Part shown: one piece after another, positions 7,868 to 40,678 of the stretch | How the letters are laid out: each line of letters starts with the position of its first letter | How positions within the stretch are numbered: the stretch's first letter is position 1 | Assembly (NCBI GenBank): GCA_020724775.1 | Contig: DYGG01000024.1 | Coordinates: 1-46,637, forward strand | DNA length: 46,637 nucleotides | Origin: Ignavibacterium sp. | GTDB taxonomy: Bacteria > Zixibacteria > MSB-5A5 > GN15 > PGXB01 | Direction of reading: 5' to 3' | The notes under the pieces: model-generated | Told to the model about the DNA's origin: nothing | The model's database searches: none | Seen by the model: only the letters and a program-made list of their open reading frames with translations | Program-made: the position numbers and the translations under genes

Positions 7868-8677
7868 TCATGACGTCGATTTCTTTCCTGTTTCCTTTTT
7901 TCGCGATATCATATCCGAAGACTTGCGATAGATATTTCCGACCGTCTTTCGAATCGGTGACGATATAAGTTGTCGGGTTTTGCGGAGAATGTCGGATTTA
8001 ATATCTTGCTGACGAGAAACCGGTTCCTCCCAGATACCCTCGTCACGATAGATTTCGAAACGGAGCAGACGCGACGCGTTCAGGAGCGCCGCTTTCAATT
8101 CCGTCTCGTTATCAGATTTTTCGATATCGAGTTCCAGATATGCCCGGCCGATTTCATCGAGAGAATGAGCATTGCTTGCCACCACTTGCGGAATGTCGGA
8201 GTGCATTTTGAGGAACTCATGAGTTCGGATAATCTCCTCCGGGCGGCATCGCGGGGTGGCAAGTTCAATCAAATCTATTTTCGAAAGGGCTTCAGCCGTA
8301 ATCTCGGTGATATCCCCACGGCTATCCTCTTTCAGATAAAGCAGCCCTTTTCCCTTGCGGAAAGGATGGGGCAGAAGGACAAGCCCTTTTTGAGAATGGA
8401 TTTCGTCGATTACATCAAGAAGGTGACGGGAGTGAACCTCGTCTTTTAAGAACAGGCCGACAATATGAACTCCCTGCTCGGTATTAATCTCCGCTGCGGC
8501 AATTACCTTCACCCGTTCGGAACAGTCCCGCGCCAGGGTCACCGCTGAGAGAGCCTCATGGTCGCAGACCGCAATAAGGTCGAGTCCGACTTCTTCCGAT
8601 TTCCGGACAATCGCTGCAATGGATGACTCGCAGTCAAAAGAGTGCTCGGTATGAATGTGAAGGTCCATTCTCATCAT
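7868..8677 (-). CDS. PHP-domain metal-dependent phosphoesterase-like protein
   Basis: 269 residues. The PHP fold is marked by the start motif DLHIHTEHSFD (His7, His9, Asp15), AVCDHEAL (Asp39, His40), AAEINTEQGVHIVG (Glu63, His71), LLPHPF (His104) and a last motif SNAH (168-171). In most PHP proteins the last motif is SDxH; here the Asp is Asn169, so one metal ligand may be altered. The family includes histidinol phosphatases (HisK), DNA polymerase-linked PHP domains and 3',5'-nucleoside bisphosphate phosphatases. The basic C-terminal tail (about 225-269, KSDILRKTRQ to KKETGKKSTS) is unusual and might contact membrane or nucleic acid. It begins with ATGATG behind an AGGGAAAG-like site. It is probably first in an operon with the HisC-like gene, priming transferase and Wzi-like gene. 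Confidence 0.85.
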   Translation of the reverse strand: MMRMDLHIHTEHSFDCESSIAAIVRKSEEVGLDLIAVCDHEALSAVTLARDCSERVKVIAAAEINTEQGVHIVGLFLKDEVHSRHLLDVIDEIHSQKGLVLLPHPFRKGKGLLYLKEDSRGDITEITAEALSKIDLIELATPRCRPEEIIRTHEFLKMHSDIPQVVASNAHSLDEIGRAYLELDIEKSDNETELKAALLNASRLLRFEIYRDEGIWEEPVSRQQDIKSDILRKTRQLISSPIRKTVGNIYRKSSDMISRKKETGKKSTS

Positions 8678-25573: not shown

Positions 25574-26428
25574 TCAGCGTCGGTACCGAGCCAGGTTGTA
25601 AAGGCTGGTGCCAAAGAAAATAGCGGAGGCGACCAGGATAACTGCCGCCCCGGTGGCGATATTCCAAGCCAGAGAAGCGATTGGCCACAGCAGAGAGGAG
25701 ACAAAAGCAAGAGCGCCCGACCACCAGAAAAGCGTTCCGGAGTTACGGGCAATATTGCGCGCGGAGGCGGCGGGAAGAATCAACATGGCGGTGACCAGAA
25801 GCAATCCGACCGCGCGGATGCTGAAAGTCACCACAATCGCCAGCAAGGCGGCAAAAGAATACTCGTACAATGTGGTATTAACCCCTTTGGAAAAAGCCCA
25901 ATCCTGATGCAAGCCGATCATCAGCAATTTGTTGTAAGTGCTCCAGATATAGATGACGGCGAGGAGAAAGAGCAGAATCATGGCAGTCAATTCGATTTCG
26001 GTGATGGTGAGAATGTCGCCGAAGAGATAACTCTGCAGGTCGCGACTGAGTCCACGGCGGGCGGAGATAATCGCAATCCCGAGCGCGATGACGGTAGAAA
26101 AGAAGACGCCGATGACGGTATCGGTGGAGAGTTCGGTATGTCTTTTGACTTTGATAATACCCAGGCCGATAATGACGCCGAAAATGACTAATGTAACCCA
26201 GGGATTCAGCCCGAAGAGAAGCCCGAGGGCAATGCCGGTGAAAGCGGAGTGGCTGATGGTATCGGAAAAGAAAGCCATCCGGAAGTTGACTACCATAATA
26301 CCGATAGCGCCGCAGAGAAGGGATAACAAAGTCAGCCCGATAAAGGCGCGGATTATAAAAGTTGATTGCGCCCATTCAAAAGGGAGCAAAGTCCCGACCG
26401 CCTGATAAAGATAGTCGTACAGGTTCAT
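25574..26428 (-). CDS. Metal ABC transporter permease (ZnuB/MntB-like)
   Basis: 284 residues with about eight hydrophobic segments, as in ABC-3 family permeases for zinc or manganese. Recognisable blocks are MVVNFRMAFFSDTISHSAFTG (start of the second cytoplasmic region, as in ZnuB), LFGDILTIT and LLLVTAMLILPAASARNIAR. It forms the membrane channel with the ATPase and binding protein encoded immediately upstream (12-bp gap to the ATPase gene). It is the last gene in the operon. Metal choice between Zn and Mn is not decided by this protein; the His-rich loop in the binding protein favours zinc. There is no obvious ribosome site, consistent with translation coupled to the preceding gene. Confidence 0.93.
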   Translation of the reverse strand: MNLYDYLYQAVGTLLPFEWAQSTFIIRAFIGLTLLSLLCGAIGIMVVNFRMAFFSDTISHSAFTGIALGLLFGLNPWVTLVIFGVIIGLGIIKVKRHTELSTDTVIGVFFSTVIALGIAIISARRGLSRDLQSYLFGDILTITEIELTAMILLFLLAVIYIWSTYNKLLMIGLHQDWAFSKGVNTTLYEYSFAALLAIVVTFSIRAVGLLLVTAMLILPAASARNIARNSGTLFWWSGALAFVSSLLWPIASLAWNIATGAAVILVASAIFFGTSLYNLARYRR

Positions 26429-26440
26429 ATCAAAGGCGAC

Positions 26441-27205
26441 CTATTCATGCTTATGCTTCTCCGGGTGGGGGTACCGGACGACTTCGATATGATGGCCAAA
26501 AACCGCCTGCAGATTCTCCGGGGTAAGAATTTTGGCAGTCTCCCCCTGACAGATAAGCGTCTTATTAAGACAGATTACATGGTCGGCATGATTGGTGACG
26601 ACGGAGAGGTCGTGACTCACGATAACCATCGTGAAATGGCGGCGGTGATGAATCGATTCCAGAAGGTCACAAAAAAGTCGCTCGCCGGTGATATCGATAC
26701 CGGAGACCGGCTCATCCAGAAGCAGCAGATTGGGATTTCCCGACAGAGCCGATGCCAGAAGGACTCTTTGCAGTTCGCCGCCGGAGAGTTTGCCGAGGGG
26801 ACGTCGCGTCAGATGCGCGGCTTCGACAAGATTAAGATTCTCTTCCGCTTTCTCAATTAGAGCGCGGCGCCGTCCCAGCCAGAGCGGTTTTTTCTGATAA
26901 GGCATGACCAGAAAATCGATGACGGTCATCGGAATACCGCGGTCAAAATCGAGCACCTGCGGGACATACCCGAAGCGAGGTGTAACAGTCTGACCCTCCG
27001 CTGAGAGAAACTGCACCTTGCCGCTGAAGGGAACCTTGTTCAGAATAACTTTCAGGGCGGTGGTCTTTCCGGCGCCGTTGGGCCCGACTAAAGCAGTCAC
27101 GGAACCGGCCGGAATTTCCGCGCTGATATTTTCCAGCACTTTGATGCCATCAAAGGAAACCGAAAGATTCTGAAACTGAATTGCCGGCGAAGATAATTCC
27201 GTCAT
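26441..27205 (-). CDS. Metal ABC transporter ATP-binding protein (ZnuC/MntA-like)
   Basis: 254 residues, a complete ABC ATPase: Walker A GPNGAGKTT (residues ~40-48), Q-loop in FGYVPQVLDFDRGIP, signature LSGGELQRVLLA, Walker B LLLLDEP, D-loop SGID and H-loop VSHDL. The FDRGIPMTVIDFL block after the Q-loop is typical of zinc/manganese importers. It powers the permease at 25574-26428. The last residues, PHPEKHKHE, are His-rich and may bind metal. Its start overlaps the upstream znuA-like stop by four bases, so the genes are translationally coupled. Confidence 0.95.
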   Translation of the reverse strand: MTELSSPAIQFQNLSVSFDGIKVLENISAEIPAGSVTALVGPNGAGKTTALKVILNKVPFSGKVQFLSAEGQTVTPRFGYVPQVLDFDRGIPMTVIDFLVMPYQKKPLWLGRRRALIEKAEENLNLVEAAHLTRRPLGKLSGGELQRVLLASALSGNPNLLLLDEPVSGIDITGERLFCDLLESIHHRRHFTMVIVSHDLSVVTNHADHVICLNKTLICQGETAKILTPENLQAVFGHHIEVVRYPHPEKHKHE

Positions 27206-28134
27206 TTCATCGCCCTGACAAGGTTCTCAAGATTTTTTAGCATGACGGTCTCATAATAATCGCGAGGCGGATGGGAAGGTCCCGTGGCAACCGGGTCGAT
27301 GACATATACCGGGATCTTCAGTTCCGAAGCCAGCGTGCGCGCCATCCGTTCCGAATACTGCGGCTCGGAGAAAATGGCGGCAATTTTGTTCCGGCGAAGT
27401 TCCGAGGAAAGGGCGATCGCCTCTCTGGCGGAAGGTTCCTGCCCCGGCTCCTTTTCAATTATATCTACAATCTGGAATCCAAAATCGCGCGCCAGATAAT
27501 CATATATTTCATGAACCGCCGCGACTTTTGGATGGGAGAGATTAGTAAGCCGTGAGCGATACTGAGTCACGACAGAATCAAGACGGCTTAAATAGTCGGC
27601 GGCGTTGGCATTGATAAGTTCGGCATAGCGGGGGAAATGCTGCGCCAGCGAGGCGGCTATCCGCGCAATCATCGCCTGCGCCTGGAGCGGTGATGCGAAA
27701 GGGTGGGGGTTCCATTGTCCCCCGTCTGATTCGTGGTCATGACCGGTATGAACCGCCCGGGAAGGAAGCGGCGCGATGCCGGAGGTGGCATCGATAACCG
27801 ACATTTCATCACTCCCGCCCACAATATCCTCGATAAAATCGTCCAGACCCATGCCGTTGATAATGACCAGGTCGGCTAAGTGCGCCTTTTTGATATCGTC
27901 GGGGGCGAGAGAAAAATCGTGAGGGCAGCCGTAATCGCCGGGGAGAAGAATCTCTACCTGCAGGTCCGGTATATTGTAGGTCAGATTCAGAGTGAACAGA
28001 TAGATAGGAAAGAAGGTTGTCAGAACTCTGGTTCTCTTGTCGCTCTCACCGGCGGTAAGGGGCGAAATGGCTGTCACTGAAATGAATGCAAGAAGTGATA
28101 ATATATATATCAGTCTAATATTTTTTTTGGGCAT
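27202..28134 (-). CDS. Zinc/manganese-binding periplasmic protein (ZnuA-like, cluster A-I)
   Basis: 310 residues with a Sec signal peptide (hydrophobic 8-25, cleavage near LTAGE). Metal ligands of the cluster A-I family are visible: His72 (GCPHDFSL), His144 (WNPHPF), His208 (AAVHEIYDYLARDFG) and Asp280 (VIDPVATG). A short His-rich loop, HTGHDHES (129-136), lies before the second ligand, as in zinc-specific ZnuA proteins. It delivers metal to the permease. It is first gene of the operon. A TATAAT box ends only eight bases before the ATG (28143-28148 on the reverse strand), so the mRNA would be leaderless or nearly so. The third to fifth codons form an A8 run. Confidence 0.93.
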   Translation of the reverse strand: MPKKNIRLIYILSLLAFISVTAISPLTAGESDKRTRVLTTFFPIYLFTLNLTYNIPDLQVEILLPGDYGCPHDFSLAPDDIKKAHLADLVIINGMGLDDFIEDIVGGSDEMSVIDATSGIAPLPSRAVHTGHDHESDGGQWNPHPFASPLQAQAMIARIAASLAQHFPRYAELINANAADYLSRLDSVVTQYRSRLTNLSHPKVAAVHEIYDYLARDFGFQIVDIIEKEPGQEPSAREAIALSSELRRNKIAAIFSEPQYSERMARTLASELKIPVYVIDPVATGPSHPPRDYYETVMLKNLENLVRAMK

Positions 28135-28209: not shown

Positions 28210-29742
28210 TCATTTCCGCTTCAAAGCCAGTTCATGGAGAGCGTCATAGTATCCGAAGGCGGCGGCTTGATTCAGATGCAGAAGCGCCATTGGTTTGTCG
28301 GCAACCTGCGCCAGGTAGTAATGAAAGGAGGCCTGATCGGGATATTGGGCAAGAGCGCTCTGAAAACGGTCGCGGGCGCCGAGGAAATCTTTCATAAGAT
28401 AGGCGCGATACCCATCAGAAGCGGCCAACGTTGCCGCGCCCAATGATGTCTCCGCCAGACGATTTATCATCAGTTCTTTATGATTGAGGTTGATGTATGA
28501 GAAAAAGACAGAGGGAAGTTCCGCCAGCGGATAGCCGGTTTCTTCGACAGCATCAAGCACCAGCATCAAGTAAGTGGTTATCTTGTCTAAAGCGTCGCCG
28601 TCTTCAAGTCCGGCGCGGATAATTCGGCTGTTAAGGCGGTCAAAACGGTCGCTGGAAAGCCAGGTAGGGCGGACGGTCATTATGGAACTGATATCGGAGA
28701 CATGCACGGCGCCGAGAAGATGACCGATCTCATGCAGCAGCAGTTGCCCCTCAAGGAAAACTTTCCATTCGCGGAGTTCGGCAGAAGGCGGAGAGATTTC
28801 GGCAATAACCGCCAGTTTCCGCCCCAGGTCAGATAATCCAACCTGAATATGGCCGTCACCGATATAGTAATCTTCTCCATTATCAGGGCGAAAGACGGCA
28901 ATTGTTAGAGTATCCGATGGCGGCAAACCGCCCCGGATGAAAGAGCGGAGCAACCGTTCGATATCAGAGTAAGAGAGTTCCTTGACCGTGAAATACTCCA
29001 GCGCGACCTGATGCAGCCCCACTCCGAACTGCTTATGGAGGGAGCGCGCGGCGTAATCTACCCCGCGCAGGAGGTCTTTTTCCATGTTCCCCTTAATGTC
29101 ATTGGCGATTCGCGAATCGACCAGCAGTTTAAGCGGTCGGGAACGGTCGTAAATCTCTTTCACCGGCGGCAATTGCGGGAGAAACGAGAGCGCTTCAGAG
29201 AGAAGGCGCTTGAGAACAAAATCAGGCGGCTCAATGTGACCCAGACCATCCTTGAGACGGAGGGAATCTTCGGTGGCGACCCAGTTTTCGAGGGGACGGG
29301 CGCTGGTTTTCTTTCCTTTTATCAGGAAAACTGACGAATCGAGACGGAAAAAATCGGTCCGCAGTTCGATGGCGGCGGTGAATTCAAAAACAGCGGGGGA
29401 TGATGAGCGCAGTCTGACCCGGCGGAACTTTGGCTTTGGCGCCAGATGCAGAAGGTAATCGTAGTCGCTAAATTTCGAAGCGACTTTGGGGTCTTTAAGG
29501 TTTGGTTTTTCTTTAAGGGGAATAATCTCGAACTGAAATCCTTTCGACCAGAGATAATAATCGAGATGATTCTGGAAACATTCCAGAAAATTTTCGGCAT
29601 TGTACTCGAGATTTTCCGGCAGACGGGGCGCGGTGATGACCACCGCTATTTTTCCCGGTGGAAAATCGAGCGGTTCACCGGCATAAAGCGGCGGAACCGC
29701 GAGGAGAAGGAATAAAGAGAATATGAGTCGCTGTTTCATCAT
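28210..29742 (-). CDS. Matrixin-like zinc metalloprotease (metzincin) with TPR-like C-terminus
   Basis: About 510 residues from ATG 29742 (MMKQRL); the frame is open to 29817 but a signal peptide starts at 29742 (FSLFLLLAVPPLYAGE), so the protein is exported. The middle domain contains HEIGHLLGAVHVSDISSIM (28678-28734): the metzincin zinc motif HExxHxxGxxH with the Met-turn Met eight residues after the third His, the spacing seen in matrixins. His337, His341 and His347 would bind zinc, with Glu338 as general base. The ~310 residues before it do not match a prodomain I recognise. The C-terminal part (RAYLMKDFLGARDRFQSALA) is TPR-like. Substrate unknown. It is divergent from the TPR lipoprotein at 29799. 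Confidence 0.82.
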   Translation of the reverse strand: MMKQRLIFSLFLLLAVPPLYAGEPLDFPPGKIAVVITAPRLPENLEYNAENFLECFQNHLDYYLWSKGFQFEIIPLKEKPNLKDPKVASKFSDYDYLLHLAPKPKFRRVRLRSSSPAVFEFTAAIELRTDFFRLDSSVFLIKGKKTSARPLENWVATEDSLRLKDGLGHIEPPDFVLKRLLSEALSFLPQLPPVKEIYDRSRPLKLLVDSRIANDIKGNMEKDLLRGVDYAARSLHKQFGVGLHQVALEYFTVKELSYSDIERLLRSFIRGGLPPSDTLTIAVFRPDNGEDYYIGDGHIQVGLSDLGRKLAVIAEISPPSAELREWKVFLEGQLLLHEIGHLLGAVHVSDISSIMTVRPTWLSSDRFDRLNSRIIRAGLEDGDALDKITTYLMLVLDAVEETGYPLAELPSVFFSYINLNHKELMINRLAETSLGAATLAASDGYRAYLMKDFLGARDRFQSALAQYPDQASFHYYLAQVADKPMALLHLNQAAAFGYYDALHELALKRK

Positions 29743-29763
29743 GGTAAAATCGCTTATTGGCGC

Positions 29764-29792
29764 TTGAAAATCAAGGTGCAAAGAAGTATAAT
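29764..29792 (+). promoter_or_regulatory. Leaderless-type promoter of the TPR lipoprotein
   Basis: TTGAAA (29764-29769), 17 bp, TATAAT (29787-29792), then six bases to the ATG at 29799. A second TATAAT directly abuts the ATG. This is the same geometry as at greA; no ribosome site is present. Confidence 0.7.
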
Positions 29793-29798
29793 TATAAT

Positions 29799-30650
29799 AT
29801 GGGAAAAGTAACGACACGGGCGCTCGGCCTTTTGATTCTGTTCATTTTTATTTTCGGGTGCGGCAAGGAGCCGACAGACCTGGCGGGATTGAAGAAAGCG
29901 GCGACCGACTCGCTGGAGAAAGGGGAAAACCGTAAGGCGCTTGTCTATCTGACTAAGGCAATGAGCCTGGCGCCGTCGGATAAAGAACTGCTGGTCGGCA
30001 TGGCGGAAGCCTACAAAAAAGAAGGGGTGACCGATTCGGCGCTGTCGTACTTTCGTCGCGCCGATAAACTCTATCCGCGCGACCGGAAAATCAACCGGGA
30101 GTTGATAGAATTGTATCGCGCCACCGATGACGCTGACGGCGCTCTGGGAGCGATAGCCGTTATGGTCGCCACCGGAGACAATGAAAAGATTTACTGGCTC
30201 CTCCTGGCGGAACTTTATACGAAGTTAAACGATATGAAGAATGCGGCAAAATACTGGCGGTTTTTAATGATTGATAATCCCACCGAGCCGAATTACTACC
30301 TTCAGTACTCCAATACCCTGACCTATCTGAAGCAGTACGAGGAAGCGAATCAGGTTTTGGCACAGGCGATGGAGCAGTTCGGACCGGCGGCGGAAGGGTA
30401 TGCCAATATGGCGGTCAATTTTCTCAATATGCGGCAGTTCGATAAGGCGGAGGAGAATTTCCGCCGGAGCCTGGAGTTGAATCCGAACAGCCCGATGACC
30501 TGGCTTAATCTGGCGAATCTTCTTTCAGGACGCGCTGAGCGCGCCAAGAAGGAAGAGGCGCTGGGGATATATCGTCGGTTTCGCGGGCAGGCGCCGGAGG
30601 CGATGCGTCTCGATTCACTTATCGGGGGGCTGGAGAAAGAGTTGCAGTAG
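29799..30650 (+). CDS. TPR-repeat lipoprotein
   Basis: 283 residues. The signal peptide ends in a lipobox-like FIFGC (Cys21), so it is a membrane-anchored lipoprotein. The rest is a tetratricopeptide superhelix of about six repeats: KAATDSLEKGENRKALVYLTK, KEGVTDSALSYFRRADKLYP, and later YANMAVNFLNMRQFDKAEEN with RRSLELNPNSPMTWLNLANLL. TPRs mediate protein-protein interaction; the partner is unknown. I chose the start at 29799, not the open-frame beginning at 29757, because the lipoprotein signal begins there and a promoter occupies the upstream bases. Divergent from the metzincin, so the two may be functionally linked. Confidence 0.88.
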   Translation: MGKVTTRALGLLILFIFIFGCGKEPTDLAGLKKAATDSLEKGENRKALVYLTKAMSLAPSDKELLVGMAEAYKKEGVTDSALSYFRRADKLYPRDRKINRELIELYRATDDADGALGAIAVMVATGDNEKIYWLLLAELYTKLNDMKNAAKYWRFLMIDNPTEPNYYLQYSNTLTYLKQYEEANQVLAQAMEQFGPAAEGYANMAVNFLNMRQFDKAEENFRRSLELNPNSPMTWLNLANLLSGRAERAKKEEALGIYRRFRGQAPEAMRLDSLIGGLEKELQ

Positions 30651-30946: not shown

Positions 30947-32299
30947 ATGAACCAAGGCGTTCTGCATAGGCTGGAAAACAAGCGCTTACTGACGCGCAAC
31001 ATGGTCCTGAACCTTTTGGGTCAAGGTGCGCCATTGCTGGTTGCGCTATTTTCAGTTCCGCTACTTATCAAAGGACTTGGAATTGAGCGATTCGGAATTC
31101 TGACCATAGTGTGGGTATTGGTTGGCTATTTGAGCATACTTGATTTCGGTCTTGGGAGGGCACTGACTCATTTCATTGCACAAGAAATATCAGGATATCT
31201 TGACTCGATAGCATACAGAGTAATTGCCTCTGGATTGATAGCAATGGCTATGATCGGTGTCGTCGCCTCGCTGTTGGGTATCTTAGTCTTTCCGTGGATA
31301 ATTGAGAATTATTTTCAATTCTCGGCTGACTTACTGGCTGAAACGAAGGCGACAATATATCTGATTGCATTGGCGGTTCCATTTACAATTTCCTCGGTGG
31401 GGATGAGAGGCCTATTGGAAGCACAGCAGAGGTTCGATATTGTCAATGGCATTAGAATTCCATTGGGAATAATGAATTATTTGGGTCCCTTACTAATAAT
31501 ACCTGTCTCAAGAAGCCTTGTAGCAGCGGCACTCGTATTGGTCAGCATTAGAGTCATAGCATGGATTGTCTATGTTTATTTTATGTACAGATGTTACCCA
31601 GAACTGAGACAAACAAAACTGCCAATGCCATCATTGAATACGATCAGGCCGCTTTTGCGCTTCGGAGGTATGGTGTCAATTAGTAATGTACTGGCAAGTA
31701 TTGCCTTATATGTAGATCGTTTTTTTGTCGCAAGTATACTCGGTACTGCGCAAGTTGCATATTACACCACACCCTTTGACGCCGTGACAAAACTGTGGGT
31801 GATTCCAACTGCAATAATGGGAGTAAGTTTTCCCGCGTTGACAAGTTGGTCAAAAATGGACTTTAAGCGAGTCCGCGAACTGTATCATAGAAGCATGCGC
31901 GTGATCTTTTGGTTAGTTACCCCTGCGGCGCTTGTAATAATAATATTTGCCGAACCACTGCTCAAATTTTGGCTGGGGAGGGATTTTTCGGAACAAAGTC
32001 ACGCGATTCTTCAAATATTGGCAGCGGGCGTTCTTATCAATTGCCTTGCACAAAGTTCATTTGGCTTAATACAAGCAATGGGAAAGCCGAAGATTACCGC
32101 TATTTTTCATATCATTGAAACGCCCATATACGTTATGTACATGGTAATGCTAACATCGACATATGGCCTGATAGGGACTGCACTCGCCTGGTTTATCAGG
32201 GTCCTTATAGGCGGCGCTCTATTGTTTGTGACTGCCAATTTCATACTCAAGAATGCTGATGAGTCAATAACTAATACAGCAAAAGCCCTGGTTAAGTGA
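30947..32299 (+). CDS. Polysaccharide flippase (Wzx/RfbX-like)
   Basis: 450 residues with ~12-14 hydrophobic segments, a MATE-like/MOP-superfamily polysaccharide transporter. The N-terminal block NMVLNLLGQGAPLLVALFSVPLLI and the FGILTIVWVLVGYLSILDFGLGRALTH region are typical of Wzx proteins. It would flip undecaprenyl-linked repeat units across the inner membrane. The base composition is AT-richer than the flanking genes, usual for serotype-specific genes acquired by transfer. The ATG has no Shine-Dalgarno site and overlaps the stop of a short upstream frame, so initiation may be coupled; MVLNLLGQG downstream is a less likely start. It is followed by a pyruvyltransferase-like gene after five bases. 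Confidence 0.9.
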   Translation: MNQGVLHRLENKRLLTRNMVLNLLGQGAPLLVALFSVPLLIKGLGIERFGILTIVWVLVGYLSILDFGLGRALTHFIAQEISGYLDSIAYRVIASGLIAMAMIGVVASLLGILVFPWIIENYFQFSADLLAETKATIYLIALAVPFTISSVGMRGLLEAQQRFDIVNGIRIPLGIMNYLGPLLIIPVSRSLVAAALVLVSIRVIAWIVYVYFMYRCYPELRQTKLPMPSLNTIRPLLRFGGMVSISNVLASIALYVDRFFVASILGTAQVAYYTTPFDAVTKLWVIPTAIMGVSFPALTSWSKMDFKRVRELYHRSMRVIFWLVTPAALVIIIFAEPLLKFWLGRDFSEQSHAILQILAAGVLINCLAQSSFGLIQAMGKPKITAIFHIIETPIYVMYMVMLTSTYGLIGTALAWFIRVLIGGALLFVTANFILKNADESITNTAKALVK

Positions 32300-32303
32300 G
32301 CAA

Positions 32304-33539
32304 ATGATAAGATTGGGAGTTTTTGGAGCATTTGACCGCTTCAATTACGGTGACCTATTATTTCCTCTTATTTTAGAACGGACTCTGGGAGCCGTGAGTG
32401 TCGAATTGGAGTGGGAGTATTACGGACTTATTTCCAGTGATCTTAGTAGAACGGGTGGAAAACCTACAAAATCAATCTCGGAATTCCTCAAATCAAAGGA
32501 CGACAAGGTCCCGAAAGTCCTCATAATAGCAGGTGGGGAGGTTTTGGAAGCCTCGTGGACAACCGTTACGAGCTATCTACTGCCAAAGGGGGCTGAAGTC
32601 GCCTTGCGTGGAATCAGAAAAATTGCGGGTGAAAGAATCTCCGATTTGATTTCACGACTCCACTTGCGACTAAACCATGATAGGCCTTTCGTAATCGGAC
32701 CGTATGGACCAAGTGGTAGAATGCTAGTACTTTATAACGCCGTTGGCGGTTCAGCGCTCTCATTGCTGAAGCCGAAGGAGAAGAGTATTATCGCTAAGGA
32801 ATTGGATAAAGCGAGCTATATATCTGTTCGTGATTGGGCCACCCGAGAGCACATTCAATCGCTCGGAATCAATCAGGAGGTTTTCCTTGCACCCGATTCA
32901 GGAATTCTGATTTCAGACATTTTTAAATCAGACGCAAGCGAAGATTATGACCCTTTCAATTCAAGCGGTGTCTCACGGGGAGGACGTCCTTTTCTATGTT
33001 TTCAGTGCAGTCGCAGATTTGCCAGCGGTAGAGAAAAGAAGATTGCAGAGAGTTTGATTCGTCTGAGCAACGACCGTAAATTGAGTATTGTATTTGTGAG
33101 CATTGGACTGGCTACAGGGCATGAAGACCAGGTAGCAGTACGGAAAATTGCCGGATTTGTGGGTGACAAGGTCCCTGTCTTGGTACCGAGAGTTACCCAT
33201 ATTCGTCAAATAGCCACTTTTATTGCCAGATCTTCGGTTTTCGTGGGTACGAGTCTTCACGGTGTAATAACTGCGATGTCATATGGTGTACCGTTCGTCG
33301 GGTTCACTTCTGAAGTAAGTAAACTGCGGCATTTCCTGGAAACTTGGAATCAGACAACAGCCACACAACCAATTGATATTGATAACATGAATGACGCGGT
33401 CGATAAGGCTCTAACGGGCACCCAACACCAGCGACAAGAACTATCTTCCAGGCTGAAAATGGAGTCTTACAAGAATTTTGACAGAATGCAAACTGTGATT
33501 CAACTGGCTGTTAACGGTCAATGGATGGGCAAACTTTGA
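32304..33539 (+). CDS. Polysaccharide pyruvyl transferase-family protein
   Basis: 411 residues. N-terminal GVFGAFDRFNYGDLLFPLIL resembles the NxGD block of the PF04230 family. The C-terminal signature is SSVFVGTSLHGVITAMSYGVPFVGF, the family's hallmark SxRxHG-like segment, here TSLHG. Between them lie APDSGILISDIF and a Rossmann-like second domain (SIVFVSIGLATGHEDQ). Family members (CsaB, WcaK, GumL-like) transfer pyruvate ketals or act as glycosyltransferases on surface polysaccharides. The acceptor is unknown. It shares the low GC of the flippase gene and lies in the same operon. Its stop overlaps the start of the GT2 gene by one base. Confidence 0.85.
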   Translation: MIRLGVFGAFDRFNYGDLLFPLILERTLGAVSVELEWEYYGLISSDLSRTGGKPTKSISEFLKSKDDKVPKVLIIAGGEVLEASWTTVTSYLLPKGAEVALRGIRKIAGERISDLISRLHLRLNHDRPFVIGPYGPSGRMLVLYNAVGGSALSLLKPKEKSIIAKELDKASYISVRDWATREHIQSLGINQEVFLAPDSGILISDIFKSDASEDYDPFNSSGVSRGGRPFLCFQCSRRFASGREKKIAESLIRLSNDRKLSIVFVSIGLATGHEDQVAVRKIAGFVGDKVPVLVPRVTHIRQIATFIARSSVFVGTSLHGVITAMSYGVPFVGFTSEVSKLRHFLETWNQTTATQPIDIDNMNDAVDKALTGTQHQRQELSSRLKMESYKNFDRMQTVIQLAVNGQWMGKL

Positions 33540-34552
33540 TGCTGCCCCTGCCCATCATCATCCTCAATTATAACGGCTGGAGGGATACGCTGGAGTGTCT
33601 CGAAAGCGTCTTGAAACTTGCGCATCCCTCAATCCAGGTCATTGTGGTCGATAACGGGTCAACAGATGATTCGGTGAACATAATCAAATCATGGGCAAAA
33701 GGAGAAATTCAGGCCGGATGCGATAATCCTCTTCTAAAACATTTTACCTTCCCTCCGGTCGCCAAGCCGATTTCCACCAGAATTCTTGAGGTCGATGGCA
33801 AGTTTGAAGCGCCAATAATGAATCAGAGAGAACTGATTATTATTAGAGCCGGCGTCAATCGGGGATATGCGGCTGGAATTAACATTGGACTGAAATATTG
33901 TCTGGCTCATCTTAAGTTCGAGTATGTCTGGTTGCTCAATAACGACACGGTGGTAACGCCATCGGCGCTTTCGGCGCTGGTGGCGAAAATGAAATTAGAC
34001 CCGACAGCGGGAATCGTCGGGTCAACACTTCTCTATTATCAGAAGCCTGAAACCATTCAGGCTCGGGCTGGAGCACATTACAACAAGTGGCTGGCGCTCA
34101 GCCGTCATATTGACGTTTTTCGGCCGTCACAGAGCGACTATAGGTTAGCGGATATAGAGAATCGGCTTTCATATGTGTGCGGGGCTTCGATGCTGGTGCG
34201 ACGGGAGTTTATCGAGCAGGTGGGGCTGATGAGTGAAGAGTACTTTCTCTATTTTGAGGAACTGGATTGGGCGGTCCGCGCCGAGGGGAGGTTTAGAATG
34301 GCATATGCGCCCGAGAGTGTGGTTTATCATAAGGAGGGGGGAAGTATCGGGAGCAGTTCGGCGGGGGCGAAGAAGAGCAAGATGGCGGATTTTTATAGTC
34401 AAAGAAATCGTGTCCTATTCACCAAAAAGTATTACCGGTTGGCTCTGCCTACGTTATATTTGGGATTGATATTATCAATCATCAATAGAATTCGGAGAGG
34501 ACAGTGGCATCAAGCACTTACGATAGCCAGAATCGCTCTTCATCTCTCGTGA
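33539..34552 (+). CDS. GT2-family glycosyltransferase
   Basis: 337 residues from ATG 33539 (TGATG overlap with the preceding stop); the frame also has an ATG at 33521. The GT-A fold is shown by PIIILNYNGWRDTLECLESV, VVDNGSTDDS, a variable insert of about 60 residues, RGYAAGINIGLKY, the DxD-like LNNDTVV, and CGASMLVRREFIEQVG with EEYFLYFEELDWAVRA, which carries the ED motif and catalytic base region. This is close to the rhamnosyltransferase-type GT2 group, which transfers sugars from nucleotide donors to lipid-linked repeat units at the inner face of the membrane. The donor cannot be assigned. Its C-terminal end overlaps the polymerase-like gene by ~49 bases. Confidence 0.92.
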   Translation: MLPLPIIILNYNGWRDTLECLESVLKLAHPSIQVIVVDNGSTDDSVNIIKSWAKGEIQAGCDNPLLKHFTFPPVAKPISTRILEVDGKFEAPIMNQRELIIIRAGVNRGYAAGINIGLKYCLAHLKFEYVWLLNNDTVVTPSALSALVAKMKLDPTAGIVGSTLLYYQKPETIQARAGAHYNKWLALSRHIDVFRPSQSDYRLADIENRLSYVCGASMLVRREFIEQVGLMSEEYFLYFEELDWAVRAEGRFRMAYAPESVVYHKEGGSIGSSSAGAKKSKMADFYSQRNRVLFTKKYYRLALPTLYLGLILSIINRIRRGQWHQALTIARIALHLS

Positions 34553-35760
34553 TTGCCTTGTACGCAATCTGGATTGCAGTAATAGGCGCCGAAAGAGTAG
34601 ATTTTTTCAACGGCACCGGTCCATTCATACTGACCCCTTTCTTGGTTTTTTCCCCCTTATTAATTGTATTCGGAGCAATAGCGTCTGTTGTACGGCAGAA
34701 AAGCATTCCATTGGTCATTCGAACTGAAAATAACGTGATTCAGTTAGCGGTCATGCTTACCATCTTTGTGGGTCTCGTAGGGGTGTCAGTGTTTTTTGGC
34801 GAAGATCACGAATTGGGGATTAAGCGCTATATCCTGTTAGTCATGAATATTTCTTTTGTTGCCCTAATAACGGCACTTATATCTCAGACGGGAGAATACA
34901 AGCGCGTTCTCTTGCTCGGCGGATACTTAGGCATAAGTTTTTCGGCACTCTTCAGCATAATTCAAGTGATGAATTGGTTAAGCGGTTCACAAATTATCGT
35001 CCCCTATCTTTCGGTTGAATCACACACAATAGGAGTATTAGTACCCAGACCATCGGGCGTTTCACTTGACCCAAATCGTGGTGGACTCTTGGTAGTCATT
35101 TATTGCTTTTTTGTTCTGTTCTTCTCGACACCGTCTCGTACACGGACATTTTTCTTGAGTTCAGGCGCCGTTCTATTGATTTCGTCATTATCCAAGTCCG
35201 CCATAATAACCGGCCTGATAGCGCTGGCGGTCATATTGTTCAACAGCCGGATTCGAAGCACACTGAGATTCGAGAATATTCGAAAAGGTATACTTGTCTC
35301 CGCTGTCTTGGTGCTGGCAATACTGATTTTCGCAGACTGGGGTCAGATATCTTCATTAATTGACTACGAGGAAGTGCTGACGGAACGATTTTCGGCCGAT
35401 GAAACTTCTTCAGGTGGAATCCATCTTTCACTTATCATTAGAGGATTTGATATATTTGTTGATTCCCTTAAGAATTTCTTTGTTGGAGTAGGGTTCGGTA
35501 GCGCCCATACGGTGTTGCAGGATTTCTATCCGGGTAATAAGTATGCGAATTTCCATTCTACCTATATTGCCGTGATGGTTGAGTCAGGGTTCATCAGCCT
35601 CTTATTTTTTCTACTTATTCACTTCTTGCCGGTCTTGAGGAAAACCAGTTTTCTCCCGCTTCTTTTGGGCATTGCATTTTTCAATATATTCTATCAGTTA
35701 ATTCTCGAGCCAGCCTTCTGGCTAACGGTCGTCCTAAGTTGGCGAAATTGGCGTTATTGA
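34504..35760 (+). CDS. O-antigen polymerase/ligase-like membrane protein (Wzy/WaaL type)
   Basis: 418 residues with ~10-11 hydrophobic segments. The large periplasmic loop and flanking helices, including SSLSKSAIITGLIALAV and FFVGVGFGSAHTVLQDF then NFHSTYIAVMVESGFISL, match the Wzy_C superfamily, where the HNxxL/HS-type segment near the C-terminal loop is characteristic. In this locus it is the most likely polymerase joining repeat units in the periplasm; a ligase is the alternative. The start is GTG 34504 with GGAGAGGACA directly upstream, so it overlaps the end of the GT2 gene in another frame. It is AT-rich like the flippase gene. Confidence 0.85.
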   Translation: MASSTYDSQNRSSSLVIALYAIWIAVIGAERVDFFNGTGPFILTPFLVFSPLLIVFGAIASVVRQKSIPLVIRTENNVIQLAVMLTIFVGLVGVSVFFGEDHELGIKRYILLVMNISFVALITALISQTGEYKRVLLLGGYLGISFSALFSIIQVMNWLSGSQIIVPYLSVESHTIGVLVPRPSGVSLDPNRGGLLVVIYCFFVLFFSTPSRTRTFFLSSGAVLLISSLSKSAIITGLIALAVILFNSRIRSTLRFENIRKGILVSAVLVLAILIFADWGQISSLIDYEEVLTERFSADETSSGGIHLSLIIRGFDIFVDSLKNFFVGVGFGSAHTVLQDFYPGNKYANFHSTYIAVMVESGFISLLFFLLIHFLPVLRKTSFLPLLLGIAFFNIFYQLILEPAFWLTVVLSWRNWRY

Positions 35761-35772
35761 GTGTTGGTTGGC

Positions 35773-36864
35773 ATGATGAGAACTTACATTAACGGACGGT
35801 TTCTTACACAGTCGCTGACCGGCGTTCAACGGTACGCTATCGAAATAGTAAAGGCTCTCGACAGTCTGATCTCCTTTGATGAGAACATCAATAAGAGATT
35901 CAAATTCATTATTCTTGCTCCCAGAGACGCCGACCGCGATCTCAATCTAAAGAATATATCGATTAAAAGAATCGGTCGCTTTCAGGGGCATCTCTGGGAG
36001 CAATTGGAACTTCCTCTTCACAGCCGGGGCGCAATCCTGGTCAATCTATGCAATATGGCGCCGATTCTCAAGCGCAAGCAGACCGTCACCATTCATGACG
36101 TCGCCGTCTTTGCCATGCCGGGCGCGTTTTCCTTTTCATTTCGCGCCTGGTACAAATTTGTATTTCGAGTTCTGGCGCACAACAGGTCGGAGATTGTCAC
36201 CGTTACGGAGTTTTCGCGGTCGGAGATAAAGAAAGTCCTTGCCGCTGCGGATAAGAGACTTTCGGTAATTCCAGCCGGCTGCGAACATGTATCGGAAATT
36301 ACTTCGGACCACCGGATAGTCAGCGAGTTGGGATTGACGAGCGGAAAATATATTCTAACTGTCGCCAGCCTCAACGAAAGAAAGAACTTTCGGGGATTTC
36401 TGGCGGCAATCAGGCAGCCAAACATTGCCGGATATCAAACGGTAGTGGTTGGAACCGTCAACGAGAAGGTTTTCGGAAGCCGTGGCTTTGAAATGCCGGA
36501 GAATGTCTTACAGATTGCGGAGGTCAGTGACGCCAAACTCAAAGCCTTATACTCCAACGCCGCGGTCTTTGTTTACCCGTCGTTCTACGAAGGCTTCGGG
36601 CTGCCACCCCTGGAAGCCATGGCTTGCGGTGTCCCGGTGGTGGTATCCGATATCCCGCCTCATCAGGAAATCTGCGGCGAGGCGGCGATGTACTGCGACC
36701 CTCACGATATTAAAGATATTGCTGATAAGATTGAAAAAGTGTTACTTTCCGACCGTACAAGAATGGAATTGGTTGCAAAAGGAAAAGAACGAGCCGGGCT
36801 GTTTTCATGGGATAATTCGGCGCAGATGCTGGTCGAATTGATCACCGAAAGGTTTTCCCCATGA
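35773..36864 (+). CDS. GT4-family glycosyltransferase
   Basis: About 364 residues; ATG 35773 (MMRTYINGRFL) is preferred over the GTG at 35761. A GT-B fold, group 1 glycosyltransferase: NGRFLTQSLTGVQRYAIEIV (N-terminal acceptor domain), ILTVASLNERKNFRGFLAA, VVVGTVNEKVFGS, and the EX7E donor block FYEGFGLPPLEAMACGVPVV. It transfers a sugar from a nucleotide donor to the growing polysaccharide repeat, probably mannose or glucose-like, but this is undetermined. GC is closer to the genome background than in the flippase-to-polymerase section. The end overlaps the next GT gene by four bases. Confidence 0.92.
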   Translation: MMRTYINGRFLTQSLTGVQRYAIEIVKALDSLISFDENINKRFKFIILAPRDADRDLNLKNISIKRIGRFQGHLWEQLELPLHSRGAILVNLCNMAPILKRKQTVTIHDVAVFAMPGAFSFSFRAWYKFVFRVLAHNRSEIVTVTEFSRSEIKKVLAAADKRLSVIPAGCEHVSEITSDHRIVSELGLTSGKYILTVASLNERKNFRGFLAAIRQPNIAGYQTVVVGTVNEKVFGSRGFEMPENVLQIAEVSDAKLKALYSNAAVFVYPSFYEGFGLPPLEAMACGVPVVVSDIPPHQEICGEAAMYCDPHDIKDIADKIEKVLLSDRTRMELVAKGKERAGLFSWDNSAQMLVELITERFSP

Positions 36865-38069
36865 AAACCGCCATTGTGCATGACTGGCTGATGACTTACG
36901 GGGGGGCGGAGCGGGTGCTGGAGCAGATGCTCAAAGTTTTCCCCGATGCCGACCTCTTCGCGCTCTATGATTTCATCCCCGAGGGGAAGAGAGATTTTAT
37001 CCAGAACAAGCCGGTGACGACCTCCTTCCTGCAGAAATTCCCCTTCGCCCGGAAAAAATACCGCAGTTATCTTCCGTTCATGCCGCTGGCAGTGGAGCAG
37101 TTCGACCTGTCGGCGTACGACCTGATTATATCAAGTTCTTTTGCGGTGGCGAAAGGGGTCATTACCGGACCGGACCAGTTGCATATCTGCCTCTGCTATT
37201 CGCCGCCGCGGTACGCCTATGATTTGACCTTCCAGTATCTCGATGAGGCGGGACTTCGTAAAGGATTCCGTGGCGCCATTGCCAAACTGATTCTTCACTA
37301 CATCCGCAACTGGGATTACCGGACAGCGGCCTGTGTTGACCAATTTATCGCCATATCCGAATATATCGCGCGGAGGATTGAAAAGATATATCGCCGTGAT
37401 TCGAAAGTTATCTATCCGCCGGTCGATACCGAGGCGTTCACGGCAGGTGACGAGCGGGGGGATTTCTACCTGACAGCGTCCCGGATGGTGCCGTATAAGA
37501 AAATCGGTTTGATAGTCGAGGCATTCGCGCAGATGCCGGAGAAGCAACTGTTTGTTATCGGCGACGGTCCCGAATACAGCAAAATCGAAAAGAAAGTCAC
37601 CGAAAATGTAATTCTGCTGGGATTCCATCAGAGCGACGTCTTGAAGGAATATCTGCAGAATACGCGGGCGTTTGTCTTTGCGGCGGAAGAAGATTTCGGG
37701 ATTCTTCCGATCGAAGCGCAGGCATGCGGGACGCCGGTTATCGCCTTTGGCAAAGGGGGAGCGCTGGAGACAGTAATCGAGGACCGGACCGGTATTTTCT
37801 TCCGGGAGCAGACGGTTGATGCCATAATCGATGCCGTCAAGCGGTTCGAGGAGAGGGAGCCTCAGTTCGACCGGAAAGAGATTCGCGCCCATGCCGAGCG
37901 GTTTTCGGTGGAGCGGTTTCAGGCTGAGTTCCGGGCGTTTGTGGAAAAGGCTATCAGAGATTTTCATGAGCGAAAAGGGAAGAAATTGCAGGGCGAAGAG
38001 AGCAAATCTTTCCCGAAATTGCAGTTGCGAAACCGTCTTAAAAACCAGACCACGCTCGACCTGCCGTAA
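36861..38069 (+). CDS. GT4-family glycosyltransferase (WbaZ-like)
   Basis: 402 residues, GT-B fold. N-terminal VHDWLMTYGGAERVLEQMLK is typical of WbaZ/mannosyltransferase-like GT4 enzymes; PPRYAYDLTFQYL, YPPVDTEAFTAGDERGDFYL, SRMVPYKKIGLIVEAFAQM and the EX7E-like AEEDFGILPIEAQACGTPV follow. It acts with the preceding GT4 on the lipid-linked repeat. The ATG overlaps the previous stop (ATGA) and AAAGG lies ~6 nt upstream. A basic, low-complexity tail of ~40 residues (from EFRAFVEKAIRDFHERKGKK) extends beyond the catalytic domain. GC is back to the high background value. Confidence 0.93.
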   Translation: MKTAIVHDWLMTYGGAERVLEQMLKVFPDADLFALYDFIPEGKRDFIQNKPVTTSFLQKFPFARKKYRSYLPFMPLAVEQFDLSAYDLIISSSFAVAKGVITGPDQLHICLCYSPPRYAYDLTFQYLDEAGLRKGFRGAIAKLILHYIRNWDYRTAACVDQFIAISEYIARRIEKIYRRDSKVIYPPVDTEAFTAGDERGDFYLTASRMVPYKKIGLIVEAFAQMPEKQLFVIGDGPEYSKIEKKVTENVILLGFHQSDVLKEYLQNTRAFVFAAEEDFGILPIEAQACGTPVIAFGKGGALETVIEDRTGIFFREQTVDAIIDAVKRFEEREPQFDRKEIRAHAERFSVERFQAEFRAFVEKAIRDFHERKGKKLQGEESKSFPKLQLRNRLKNQTTLDLP

Positions 38070-38169
38070 GTCGTTACAATTCAAGTCAGTGGGGGTATCG
38101 TAATTATCGGCTCCGTTCGGTACGGCGCTTGATAATAATCTGTCAGTGAGAAATGGGATTTCGTCAAAA

Positions 38170-39249
38170 ATGCAAGGAAGATTGACCTTCAAAAATTCAT
38201 CCGACCCGGCGCCGGAGAAAGATAACTCCCGCGCCGAAATCAGCATTATCGAACTGGCGCATCTGGCGCTCCGGAAACGATATCTTCTGGCTATCGCGAC
38301 TCTTTCGGTAATGATACTGGTCGCGGCCGGGCTCTTTCTGGTTCCGAATAAATTCCAATCGACGGCGTCGATACTCCCCTCGGGACAGACCGACAAACTG
38401 GGCGCACTCAAGGAACTTGCCGGGCTGGGAAATCTGGCGGCGATGAGCGAGGAGAATTCCTCACAACTTTTTCCGTCGATACTCCGCTCCAACCAGGTAA
38501 AAGACCCGCTTCTGAAAAAGGATTTTGTTTTCGAAAATGACGGGGAGACAAAACGGCTGGCGCTGCCGGCATATTTTGATGATGACGACCCGGACCGGCT
38601 GCGGAAAGCGCTGGAGCAGATAACCGACATCAATATGGACAAGAAAACCGGCGTGATTCGTCTGGGAGTGGAGACGGAGTATCCGGCATTTTCGCAGGCG
38701 ATATTGAAAGAGATGCTGGCGGAACTGGAGAATTTCAATCTTCATAAACGTCGCTCGCAGGCGAAAAACCGCGAGAATTATCTGGCGCGGGAGATGGCAG
38801 TGCGGGAGACGGAGTTGAAAGAGGCCGAGCGGAAATTGGAGGAGTTCCAGGCGGTGAACCGGGACTGGGATGTCTCGAGCGACCCGGAGTTGCTGCGGAT
38901 TTTGATGCAGATGAAGCGGGATATTGAGATAAAATCGAAGACCTATATATTTCTTCGCGAGCAGTATGAAATCGCCAAACTGGAAGTGCAGAAAGACCTG
39001 CCGGTGGTGGTGCTTCTGGATGAGCCGACGCTTCCGACGCAGAAATCAGGACCGCATCGGCTGGTGATGATTCTTCTCGCCGGCGTTGTTGCATTCGTTA
39101 TCGCTTTTCTCTCTGTTTTCCTCGCCGATTCCTTACGGAAAAACAAAAATGAAGAGCAGAGGGAGGCAATCAATAATTTTCGGGATGATTTTCTTCGGGC
39201 GTTTCCGGTGGTGAACAGGGTGCGGGGGCGACTTTCGAGAACAGTCTAA
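38170..39249 (+). CDS. Wzz/chain-length determinant-like protein without kinase
   Basis: About 359 residues from ATG 38170; a GTG at 38146 in frame would add eight. It has the two-helix Wzz topology: TM1 near residues 40-58 (LAIATLSVMILVAAGLFLV), a long periplasmic part with coiled coil (REMAVRETELKEAERKLEEF), and TM2 near 300-320 preceded by the Pro-rich DEPTLPTQKSGPHR, as expected for PCP proteins. No Walker motifs or Tyr cluster are present, so it is a PCP-1/3-type co-polymerase without a fused tyrosine kinase. It controls polymer length with the Wzy-like protein. It starts 77 bp after the last GT gene; the region between has no clear signal. Confidence 0.9.
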   Translation: MQGRLTFKNSSDPAPEKDNSRAEISIIELAHLALRKRYLLAIATLSVMILVAAGLFLVPNKFQSTASILPSGQTDKLGALKELAGLGNLAAMSEENSSQLFPSILRSNQVKDPLLKKDFVFENDGETKRLALPAYFDDDDPDRLRKALEQITDINMDKKTGVIRLGVETEYPAFSQAILKEMLAELENFNLHKRRSQAKNRENYLAREMAVRETELKEAERKLEEFQAVNRDWDVSSDPELLRILMQMKRDIEIKSKTYIFLREQYEIAKLEVQKDLPVVVLLDEPTLPTQKSGPHRLVMILLAGVVAFVIAFLSVFLADSLRKNKNEEQREAINNFRDDFLRAFPVVNRVRGRLSRTV

Positions 39250-39460: not shown

Positions 39461-40678
39461 TTAATCATCATCTCTGTCACCGTAATGGCCGGTGCTGTCG
39501 CTGTTGTCATGATCGTCACCATCGTCATCATCACGGTCGTCATCGCCGTCATGACCCCAGCCCCACCCAAAAGAGCCATCATCATCCATCCCGTCATCAT
39601 CGTCGATGCTCCTGCCGCAGAAGGTTTTCCACCGTCCGGCGAAGTACCCCATGCCGTCATCGCTGAACCGGCGCGGCATCATGTAATGTCCTTTGAGAGC
39701 GCCCAGCGGGTTGGCGTTGGCATCGTAGAAGTAGCCGAAGAATTTTCCTCCGGCGCGACGGAAAGCGGTCTCGTCGGCGTTCCAGTTGGGATGCGGTCTA
39801 TATACTCCCTTAAGCAGTCCTTCAAAACGGCCGGTGACATCGATCCATTTTCCATAAAACGCCCGCGGGATATCATTGAGAGTATCCGGTCCCCAAATTC
39901 CATTGACGTAGCCGGCGAGCATGCCGTTGCGGGAAATCCAGCGTCCTTTGAAAATCCCCTGGCCAGTCGAATCGACTCCCCATTTTCCTTCGAGAAAGCC
40001 GCCGGGGCAGATGCGCGGAGTAATCTTGAATGCCCGGAAGGCGACAATATTGACAGAGTCGTCGAGGTAGAAGACAGTATCCAGACGGGAGAGGTCATCC
40101 AGTCGAAAACTGAATTCAAACGGCTCGGTATCGAGCGTTACCGTGACCGGCGTATCGACCGCCATCGAATCGAGAAGCGAATCAAAAGGCGGCACAAAGA
40201 GATAGACAAAGATGCCGTCGTGATGAACAGAAGTGAAGGAGACCCATTCAATCAGTTTGCGGTCGGTACGGGGAAGGATATAATCCTGATTCGGCTCGAA
40301 ACCGATGGTGCGGCGAAGAGCCATACCGCCGCGGCTCATCGAAAGGGAACCGGTCCAATCGGTTAGTTCCGTTACGGTCGAATCAAAGCAGGGGGAGCCC
40401 CAGATAATTCTGAGGGCATAGGCGTTGAGCGCTGGAAGGTTTATGACCGAGTCGTAATCAAGACTGTCGAGGTAAATATCATCATATTCGGCTTCAACTG
40501 CCAGACCGGCGGTCAGGTCGGGGTCGCCGAAGTTGGGAGATTCATCGGTCGGCGTGAAACCGCCAAACTGGTCGGCGATGGAAAGTTCCTGCTCCGGAGA
40601 GGTGCTATCTTTGCTGCATCCAGCCATTAAGGCAAGCAGGCCGAAAAGTAGTGCAAAGACTAAGAATCGTTTAACCAT
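39461..40678 (-). CDS. Lipoprotein with W/G-rich repeats and polyaspartate tail
   Basis: 405 residues. Lipobox LMAGC (Cys21) marks a lipoprotein. Residues ~40-230 show no family I recognise. From ~240 to ~345 there are short repeats of the type GFLEGKWG, GIFKGRWIS, MLAGYVNGIWG, FYGKWIDVTGRFEGLLKG and FAGRWKT: MORN-like, each with Gly-x-W cores, suggesting a small beta-sheet ladder. The last ~45 residues (from CGRSIDDDDG) are dominated by Asp with Gly and Ser, as in calcium-binding or repetitive acidic surface tails. It may bind divalent metal or polysaccharide at the cell surface; this is inference. It starts at an ATG with GGAG upstream and is followed by its own terminator. Confidence 0.85.
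   Translation of the reverse strand: MVKRFLVFALLFGLLALMAGCSKDSTSPEQELSIADQFGGFTPTDESPNFGDPDLTAGLAVEAEYDDIYLDSLDYDSVINLPALNAYALRIIWGSPCFDSTVTELTDWTGSLSMSRGGMALRRTIGFEPNQDYILPRTDRKLIEWVSFTSVHHDGIFVYLFVPPFDSLLDSMAVDTPVTVTLDTEPFEFSFRLDDLSRLDTVFYLDDSVNIVAFRAFKITPRICPGGFLEGKWGVDSTGQGIFKGRWISRNGMLAGYVNGIWGPDTLNDIPRAFYGKWIDVTGRFEGLLKGVYRPHPNWNADETAFRRAGGKFFGYFYDANANPLGALKGHYMMPRRFSDDGMGYFAGRWKTFCGRSIDDDDGMDDDGSFGWGWGHDGDDDRDDDDGDDHDNSDSTGHYGDRDDD

Follow-up and report, generated by a model that had tools for sequence, protein, structure and literature searches.

A candidate cell-envelope metzincin encoded head to head with a TPR lipoprotein in Zixibacteria

What kind of zinc protease is encoded beside a divergent TPR lipoprotein gene in this Zixibacteria genome, and do the two gene products share a role at the cell envelope? 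The window considered here is the whole 46,637-nt stretch of contig DYGG01000024.1 that was analysed, and the features of the locus within it are collected in Table 1. An ORF had initially been drawn at 28210-29817 on the reverse strand; the ORF exists, but its start codon and coordinates needed correction to 28210-29742. Its GTG at 29817 lies upstream, beyond the promoter described below, and translation probably begins at ATG 29742, or else at the next ATG, 29739. As read from the sequence, the product opens with a signal peptide of type I (PPLYA/GEP) and lacks a lipobox, and it could be secreted past the envelope.

Table 1. Coordinates of the features at the protease locus (positions in the window).
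Feature	Position	Strand	Basis or remark
Secreted metzincin-type metalloprotease gene	28210..29742	-	510 aa; second in-frame ATG at 29739
Signal peptide, residues 1-21	29680..29742	-	Read from sequence; similar hydrophobic leader begins every homologue
N-terminal domain, residues 26-190, predicted HpaA/PelC/FlgT/CsgG-type envelope fold	29173..29667	-	AlphaFold, Foldseek against PDB
Metzincin catalytic domain, residues 197-385	28588..29154	-	AlphaFold model, Foldseek
Zinc-binding motif HEIGHLLGAVH (H337, E338, H341, G344, H347), residues 337-347	28702..28734	-	Invariant in 16 homologues
Met-turn methionine M355	28678..28680	-	Invariant in 16 homologues
C-terminal helical, TPR-like tail, residues 386-510	28213..28587	-	AlphaFold helices; TPR-type profile matches
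Predicted -10 box GATTTT, protease promoter	29746..29751	-	17 bp from TTGATT; 3 nt/6 nt before first/second ATG
Palindrome CTTGAAAATCAAG, predicted interlocked -35 boxes of two divergent promoters	29763..29775	.
Predicted -10 box TATAAT, lipoprotein promoter	29787..29792	+	17 bp from TTGAAA; 6 nt before ATG
TPR lipoprotein, partner gene, 283 aa	29799..30650	+	Start ATG 29799; FIFGC lipobox; Pfam TPR matches, conserved adjacency
Metal (Zn/Mn) ABC transporter substrate-binding protein, ZnuA type	27202..28134	-	Neighbour in family f1 only
Metal ABC transporter ATPase and permease (ZnuC, ZnuB type)	25574..27205	-	

Catalytic domain, clan membership and relatives

Behind its signal peptide the protease carries HEIGHLLGAVHVSDISSIM. 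In an alignment of 16 homologues with identity down to 18%, the columns invariant after M1 are H337, E338, H341, G344, H347, M355, D368, N371, A456, A493 and G497; because the zinc motif and Met-turn stay invariant over this range, their occurrence is not a matter of chance. The Met-turn spacing, initially described as exactly that of matrixins, is confirmed by MMP-14, which aligns across motif and Met-turn with equal spacing. The third zinc His is followed by V348, which a few homologues replace by A or T. Comparison of the window gene with a congeneric copy gives a dN/dS of 0.15 for the whole gene and 0.10 for the catalytic domain, indicating that the protease is under purifying selection, and with an intact zinc site it is predicted to be catalytically competent; an inactive pseudoprotease was rejected on the invariant catalytic set and the dN/dS of 0.10.

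The initial annotation had let its assignment stand or fall with structure prediction, and the zinc site does sit in a metzincin fold. The assignment survives because the full-length AlphaFold model (mean pLDDT 85, pTM 0.86) matches solved metzincins: Foldseek against the PDB returned fragilysin and adamalysin/ADAM catalytic domains at a probability of 1.00 and E 1e-7 to 1e-5, with a target TM of up to 0.65, for ADAM-8. The twisted five-stranded sheet with its backing and active-site helices is present in the model (strands 201-209, 242-251, 279-284, 302-305 and 310-314; helices 220-239 and 321-342). The metzincin clan is defined by the zinc motif HEXXHXXGXX(H/D) (PMC3427221, PMC9848320). On motif, Met-turn and predicted fold alike, the protease is a metzincin by clan, and it belongs to the superfamily of human MMPs and ADAMs.

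As a family name, 'matrixin' finds no support. Pfam sees the active site alone, below every cut-off (M10, PF00413, 18.7 against 24 bits; Reprolysin_5, 15 against 27 bits), the protease being the sole PF00413 match in its genome, and the top Foldseek matches are fragilysins and adamalysins/ADAMs. Matrixins (M10A) have a Ser after the third zinc His as their family-specific residue, whereas the protease has V348 there, and its Reprolysin_5 score leaves it short of the adamalysin/reprolysin (M12B) Pfam models. Astacins (M12A) have a Glu after the third His and a SIMHY motif, where the protease has V348 and SIMTV (astacin features from PMC9848320), and of the four conserved cysteines of archaemetzincins (M54; HEXXHXXGXXHCX4CXMX17CXXC; PMC3427221) none occurs in the window protease sequence. 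The protease has no match to an M48 peptidase domain and shows a metzincin fold instead. Judged by these residues and profiles, it is outside the matrixin, reprolysin, astacin and archaemetzincin families.

The protease resembles adamalysin/ADAM (M12B) and fragilysin (M10C) in its catalytic-domain fold, HExxHxxGxxH motif and Met-turn, but differs from them in that sequence similarity is not significant beyond the active site, in that V or T/A takes the place of a classical family residue behind the third His, and in that a predicted CsgG/PelC-type N-terminal domain and a TPR-like tail replace the known prodomains and ancillary domains. With matrixins (M10A, PF00413) it shares HExGHxxGxxH and an identical Met-turn distance in the MMP-14 alignment, but that match is limited to about 26 residues and no cysteine-switch prodomain is recognised; the earlier remark that the chain is unlike known MMPs is correct outside the active site.

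Full-length relatives occur in nine genomes of family f1 (the window's own included) and in several of family f4, with more distant ones in two f9 genomes. The f1 proteins form one clade in the tree (99/99), which together with the f4 distribution fits vertical descent with repeated loss. Two distant relatives pass the PF00413 gathering score: L061, from f9, which also passes Reprolysin_5 at 30.3 bits, and L072 (genome G039, family f4), a second, very divergent metzincin-TPR protein that at 31.6 bits is above the Pfam M10 cut-off. Family f2 has a shorter metzincin-TPR form of about 350 aa, like the protease in its signal peptide, metzincin domain and TPR tail, but with no N-terminal domain, different neighbours and no adjoining TPR lipoprotein. 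Five f2 loci (L064, L066-L069) encode the shorter protein with HEMxHxxGGVH, and in longer f2 loci (L097-L100) the metzincin-TPR gene is divergent from that of a conserved ~550-aa protein with the N-terminus MLSS(L/F)DITRILAE. Strict patterns drawn from the homologue alignment matched four loci, three in Zixibacteria/Zixiibacteriota and one recorded as 'bacterium'; those drawn from the window protease alone matched nothing in the genome contigs searched. Searches of Pfam, NCBIfam and the literature did not recover this architecture; in the literature searched, no paper linked Zixibacteria with metalloproteases, and no metzincin-TPR fusions were evident in titles and abstracts.

N-terminal domain, TPR tail and proposed function

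The ~310 residues that had been placed ahead of the zinc site as one stretch resolve into two parts, an N-terminal domain of ~170 residues (about 26-190) and, from 197 to 336, the ~140 residues that open the metzincin domain and form its upper half. Modelled alone (AlphaFold pLDDT 86.6), the N-terminal domain matched HpaA, PelC, Cj1090c and FlgT in the PDB at a Foldseek probability of 1.00 and CsgG at 0.97, followed by GNA1162, LptE and TolB. These matches reach TM 0.36-0.51 only, and neither a sequence relation to any PDB chain nor a Pfam match was found for the domain, so the likeness is a resemblance of fold. CsgG and TolB-N are grouped in one Pfam clan (PMC3173608). The predicted fold resembles that of outer-membrane-associated proteins (HpaA, PelC, FlgT, CsgG, LptE, TolB-N); the protease differs from PelC, CsgG, FlgT, HpaA and TolB-N, to which it has no detectable sequence relation, in not being a lipoprotein and in having the domain fused to a protease. 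The tail is called TPR-like, as in the initial annotation, because the model has helices throughout 388-509 and TPR-type profiles match at 446-497.

Sequence and models together point to a putative dedicated cell-envelope protease system. Our preferred reading, to which we give somewhat less than an even chance, is an exported metzincin endopeptidase docked in the cell envelope: the N-terminal domain and the TPR tail would serve as its docking parts, with an outer-membrane assembly or the TPR lipoprotein as the docking site, and from there the metzincin domain would process or clear outer-membrane or surface proteins. There is a parallel in BepA, an exported M48 zinc peptidase that has a TPR domain at its C-terminus and docks on BAM, the outer-membrane assembly machine (PMC8423444). 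By analogy, we infer a BepA-like mode of action carried out by a peptidase of a different clan. BepA has an M48 fold, with a Glu as the third zinc ligand, and no CsgG/PelC-type domain, and would be a functional analogue only. Characterised metzincins mostly act outside the cell or on hosts; an envelope-docked metzincin in a free-living uncultured phylum, if true, would extend the range of the clan and provide a metzincin counterpart of BepA.

The chief rival to the docking model, which we regard as rather unlikely, is that the protease is made as a zymogen: the N-terminal domain would be an inhibitory prodomain blocking the active site, and its removal by cleavage would free the metzincin to act outside the cell on environmental protein. 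Fragilysin and MMPs are prodomain-inhibited zymogens, and the top Foldseek matches of the full model are profragilysins, over 350-390 aligned columns; but the whole-chain match has an rmsd of about 16 Å and therefore needs only the catalytic parts to be superposed, and the N-terminal domain alone matches envelope proteins, with no fragilysin prodomain among the 50 matches listed. Faster evolution of the N-terminal than of the catalytic domain (dN 0.137 against 0.069; mean column identity 30% against 46%) would suit a prodomain, and E171, which closes a disordered loop before the catalytic domain and is invariant in the 14 long f1/f4 homologues and in profile A4, could be a zinc-capping acid and hence a candidate switch, although that loop (159-166) is disordered in the model and too uncertain for a switch to be judged. 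A TPR tail, moreover, would be unusual for a free secreted enzyme.

The divergent gene pair and its promoter region

At every locus where the sequence extends far enough for the arrangement to be tested, 15 in Zixibacteria of two families, the protease and TPR lipoprotein genes stand head to head, and the divergent TPR lipoprotein noticed initially is borne out by these loci and by its Pfam TPR matches. Co-occurrence across genomes, which had been suggested as a check, is thus upheld for the pair, but the dependence is one-sided because the lipoprotein is often found without the protease: it is present in 66 of 132 genomes of the phylum, most of them without the protease. The shared envelope role proposed from the arrangement gains an independent line of evidence in the fold of the N-terminal domain and loses the mutual dependence that it implied. 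Most f4 and f3 genomes have the lipoprotein without the protease, so the lipoprotein has a role of its own; in f4 loci missing the protease it usually faces dprA directly.

The intergenic gap of 56 bp holds CTTGAAAATCAAG; the palindrome CTTGAnnnnCAAG reads as two interlocked -35 boxes, each separated by 17 bp from a -10 on its own side, the predicted promoters being TTGAAA-N17-TATAAT rightwards to the lipoprotein and TTGATT-N17-GATTTT leftwards to the protease. The 17-bp spacing on the protease side recurs at 14 loci and, judged by eye, at a fifteenth (L033). Flanks have diverged among f1 genomes, most of which have an identical palindrome. The right arm, on the protease side, reads CAAG at all 15 loci that have the protease and at 1 of the 20 that lack it (Fisher p = 4.9e-9, which is optimistic because related genomes were treated as independent). 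Protease losses are scattered over f4. Most loci that lack the protease retain the lipoprotein arm, whereas the protease arm decays. In a single genus, G057, with the protease, has CTTGAATTGCAAG and G038, without it, has CTTGAATTGCAGG. At locus L037 (genome G005, 7956-8649) a deletion of the catalytic part has left only the N- and C-terminal ends of the protease gene, and in the palindrome the protease arm is altered to CAAA. The interlocked promoter is in effect a natural experiment on protease loss, and since that loss is nearly always accompanied by decay of the protease half of the promoter, functional pairs elsewhere could be predicted from the symmetry of their promoters.

With interlocked -35 boxes, RNA polymerase would be able to initiate in only one direction at any one time, which may keep protease and lipoprotein output in a fixed ratio. 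Taken whole, the proposal would be of a hitherto undescribed family of metzincins. Its members would be envelope proteases that combine a docking domain of outer-membrane type with a metzincin domain and a TPR tail, and they would be controlled jointly with an outer-membrane lipoprotein through the symmetric promoter and its interlocked -35 boxes. Such a family would represent a second, independently evolved BepA-like form of outer-membrane protein processing; we hold this to be possible rather than probable. The distance from the protease-side -10 to the ATG is 6-9 nt in most loci, which suggests a leaderless protease mRNA; a leaderless habit was not borne out genome-wide (6 of 35 window genes against 4.4 expected), so this reading depends only on the conserved spacing of the pair.

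A secreted scavenging protease whose lipoprotein neighbour is an independent gene merely sharing the promoter region would agree with the wide occurrence of the lipoprotein without the protease and with a signal peptide lacking a lipobox, but it is distinctly unlikely: the two genes have stayed together through rearrangement of everything downstream, where f4 has dprA and f1 a metal transporter/fadL, and almost all loci that keep the interlocked promoter have the protease. We likewise give little credence to the palindrome being a transcription-factor operator rather than a -35 pair. Its arms are perfectly palindromic and strongly conserved against diverging flanks, as an operator would be, but each has a -10-like hexamer on its own side at a distance of exactly 17 bp, protease-negative loci mostly keep one arm while the other decays, and among the matches listed the exact or one-mismatch copies in the genome are nearly all inside ORFs and outline no regulon, on which ground a regulon operator was rejected. 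One one-mismatch copy in the window's genome, CTTGAGTTTCAAG (L112, 1501-1513), lies 41 nt upstream of a signal-peptidase-I-like ORF.

Neighbouring genes

Downstream of the protease, f1 genomes usually have a ZnuABC-type (or other metal) transporter, a FadL-type protein, an esterase and a PIG-L-type protein, and f4 genomes have dprA, a UPF0029 protein and a PfkB kinase; the zinc-transporter operon was rejected as core context, not being conserved in f4. That the protease belongs to a zinc-limitation response with the downstream transporter is very unlikely, for although a ZnuABC-type transporter is immediately downstream in the window and most f1 genomes, and two f1 loci have a different metal transporter at the equivalent place, none adjoins the protease in G003 (L030) or in any f4 locus, G002 keeps the TPR lipoprotein and transporter without the protease, and znuA seems, from a reading of the sequence, to have its own promoter (TTGGTG-N16-TAATAT).

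On the other side, a polysaccharide-type cluster with flippase and glycosyltransferase-like genes (30947-39249, forward strand) directly follows the TPR lipoprotein in the window, and similar genes adjoin the pair in several f1 genomes. A 405-aa protein with no Pfam match is encoded ~9 kb from the pair (39461-40678, reverse strand); its relative in most f4 genomes is a lipoprotein encoded just beyond the TPR lipoprotein.
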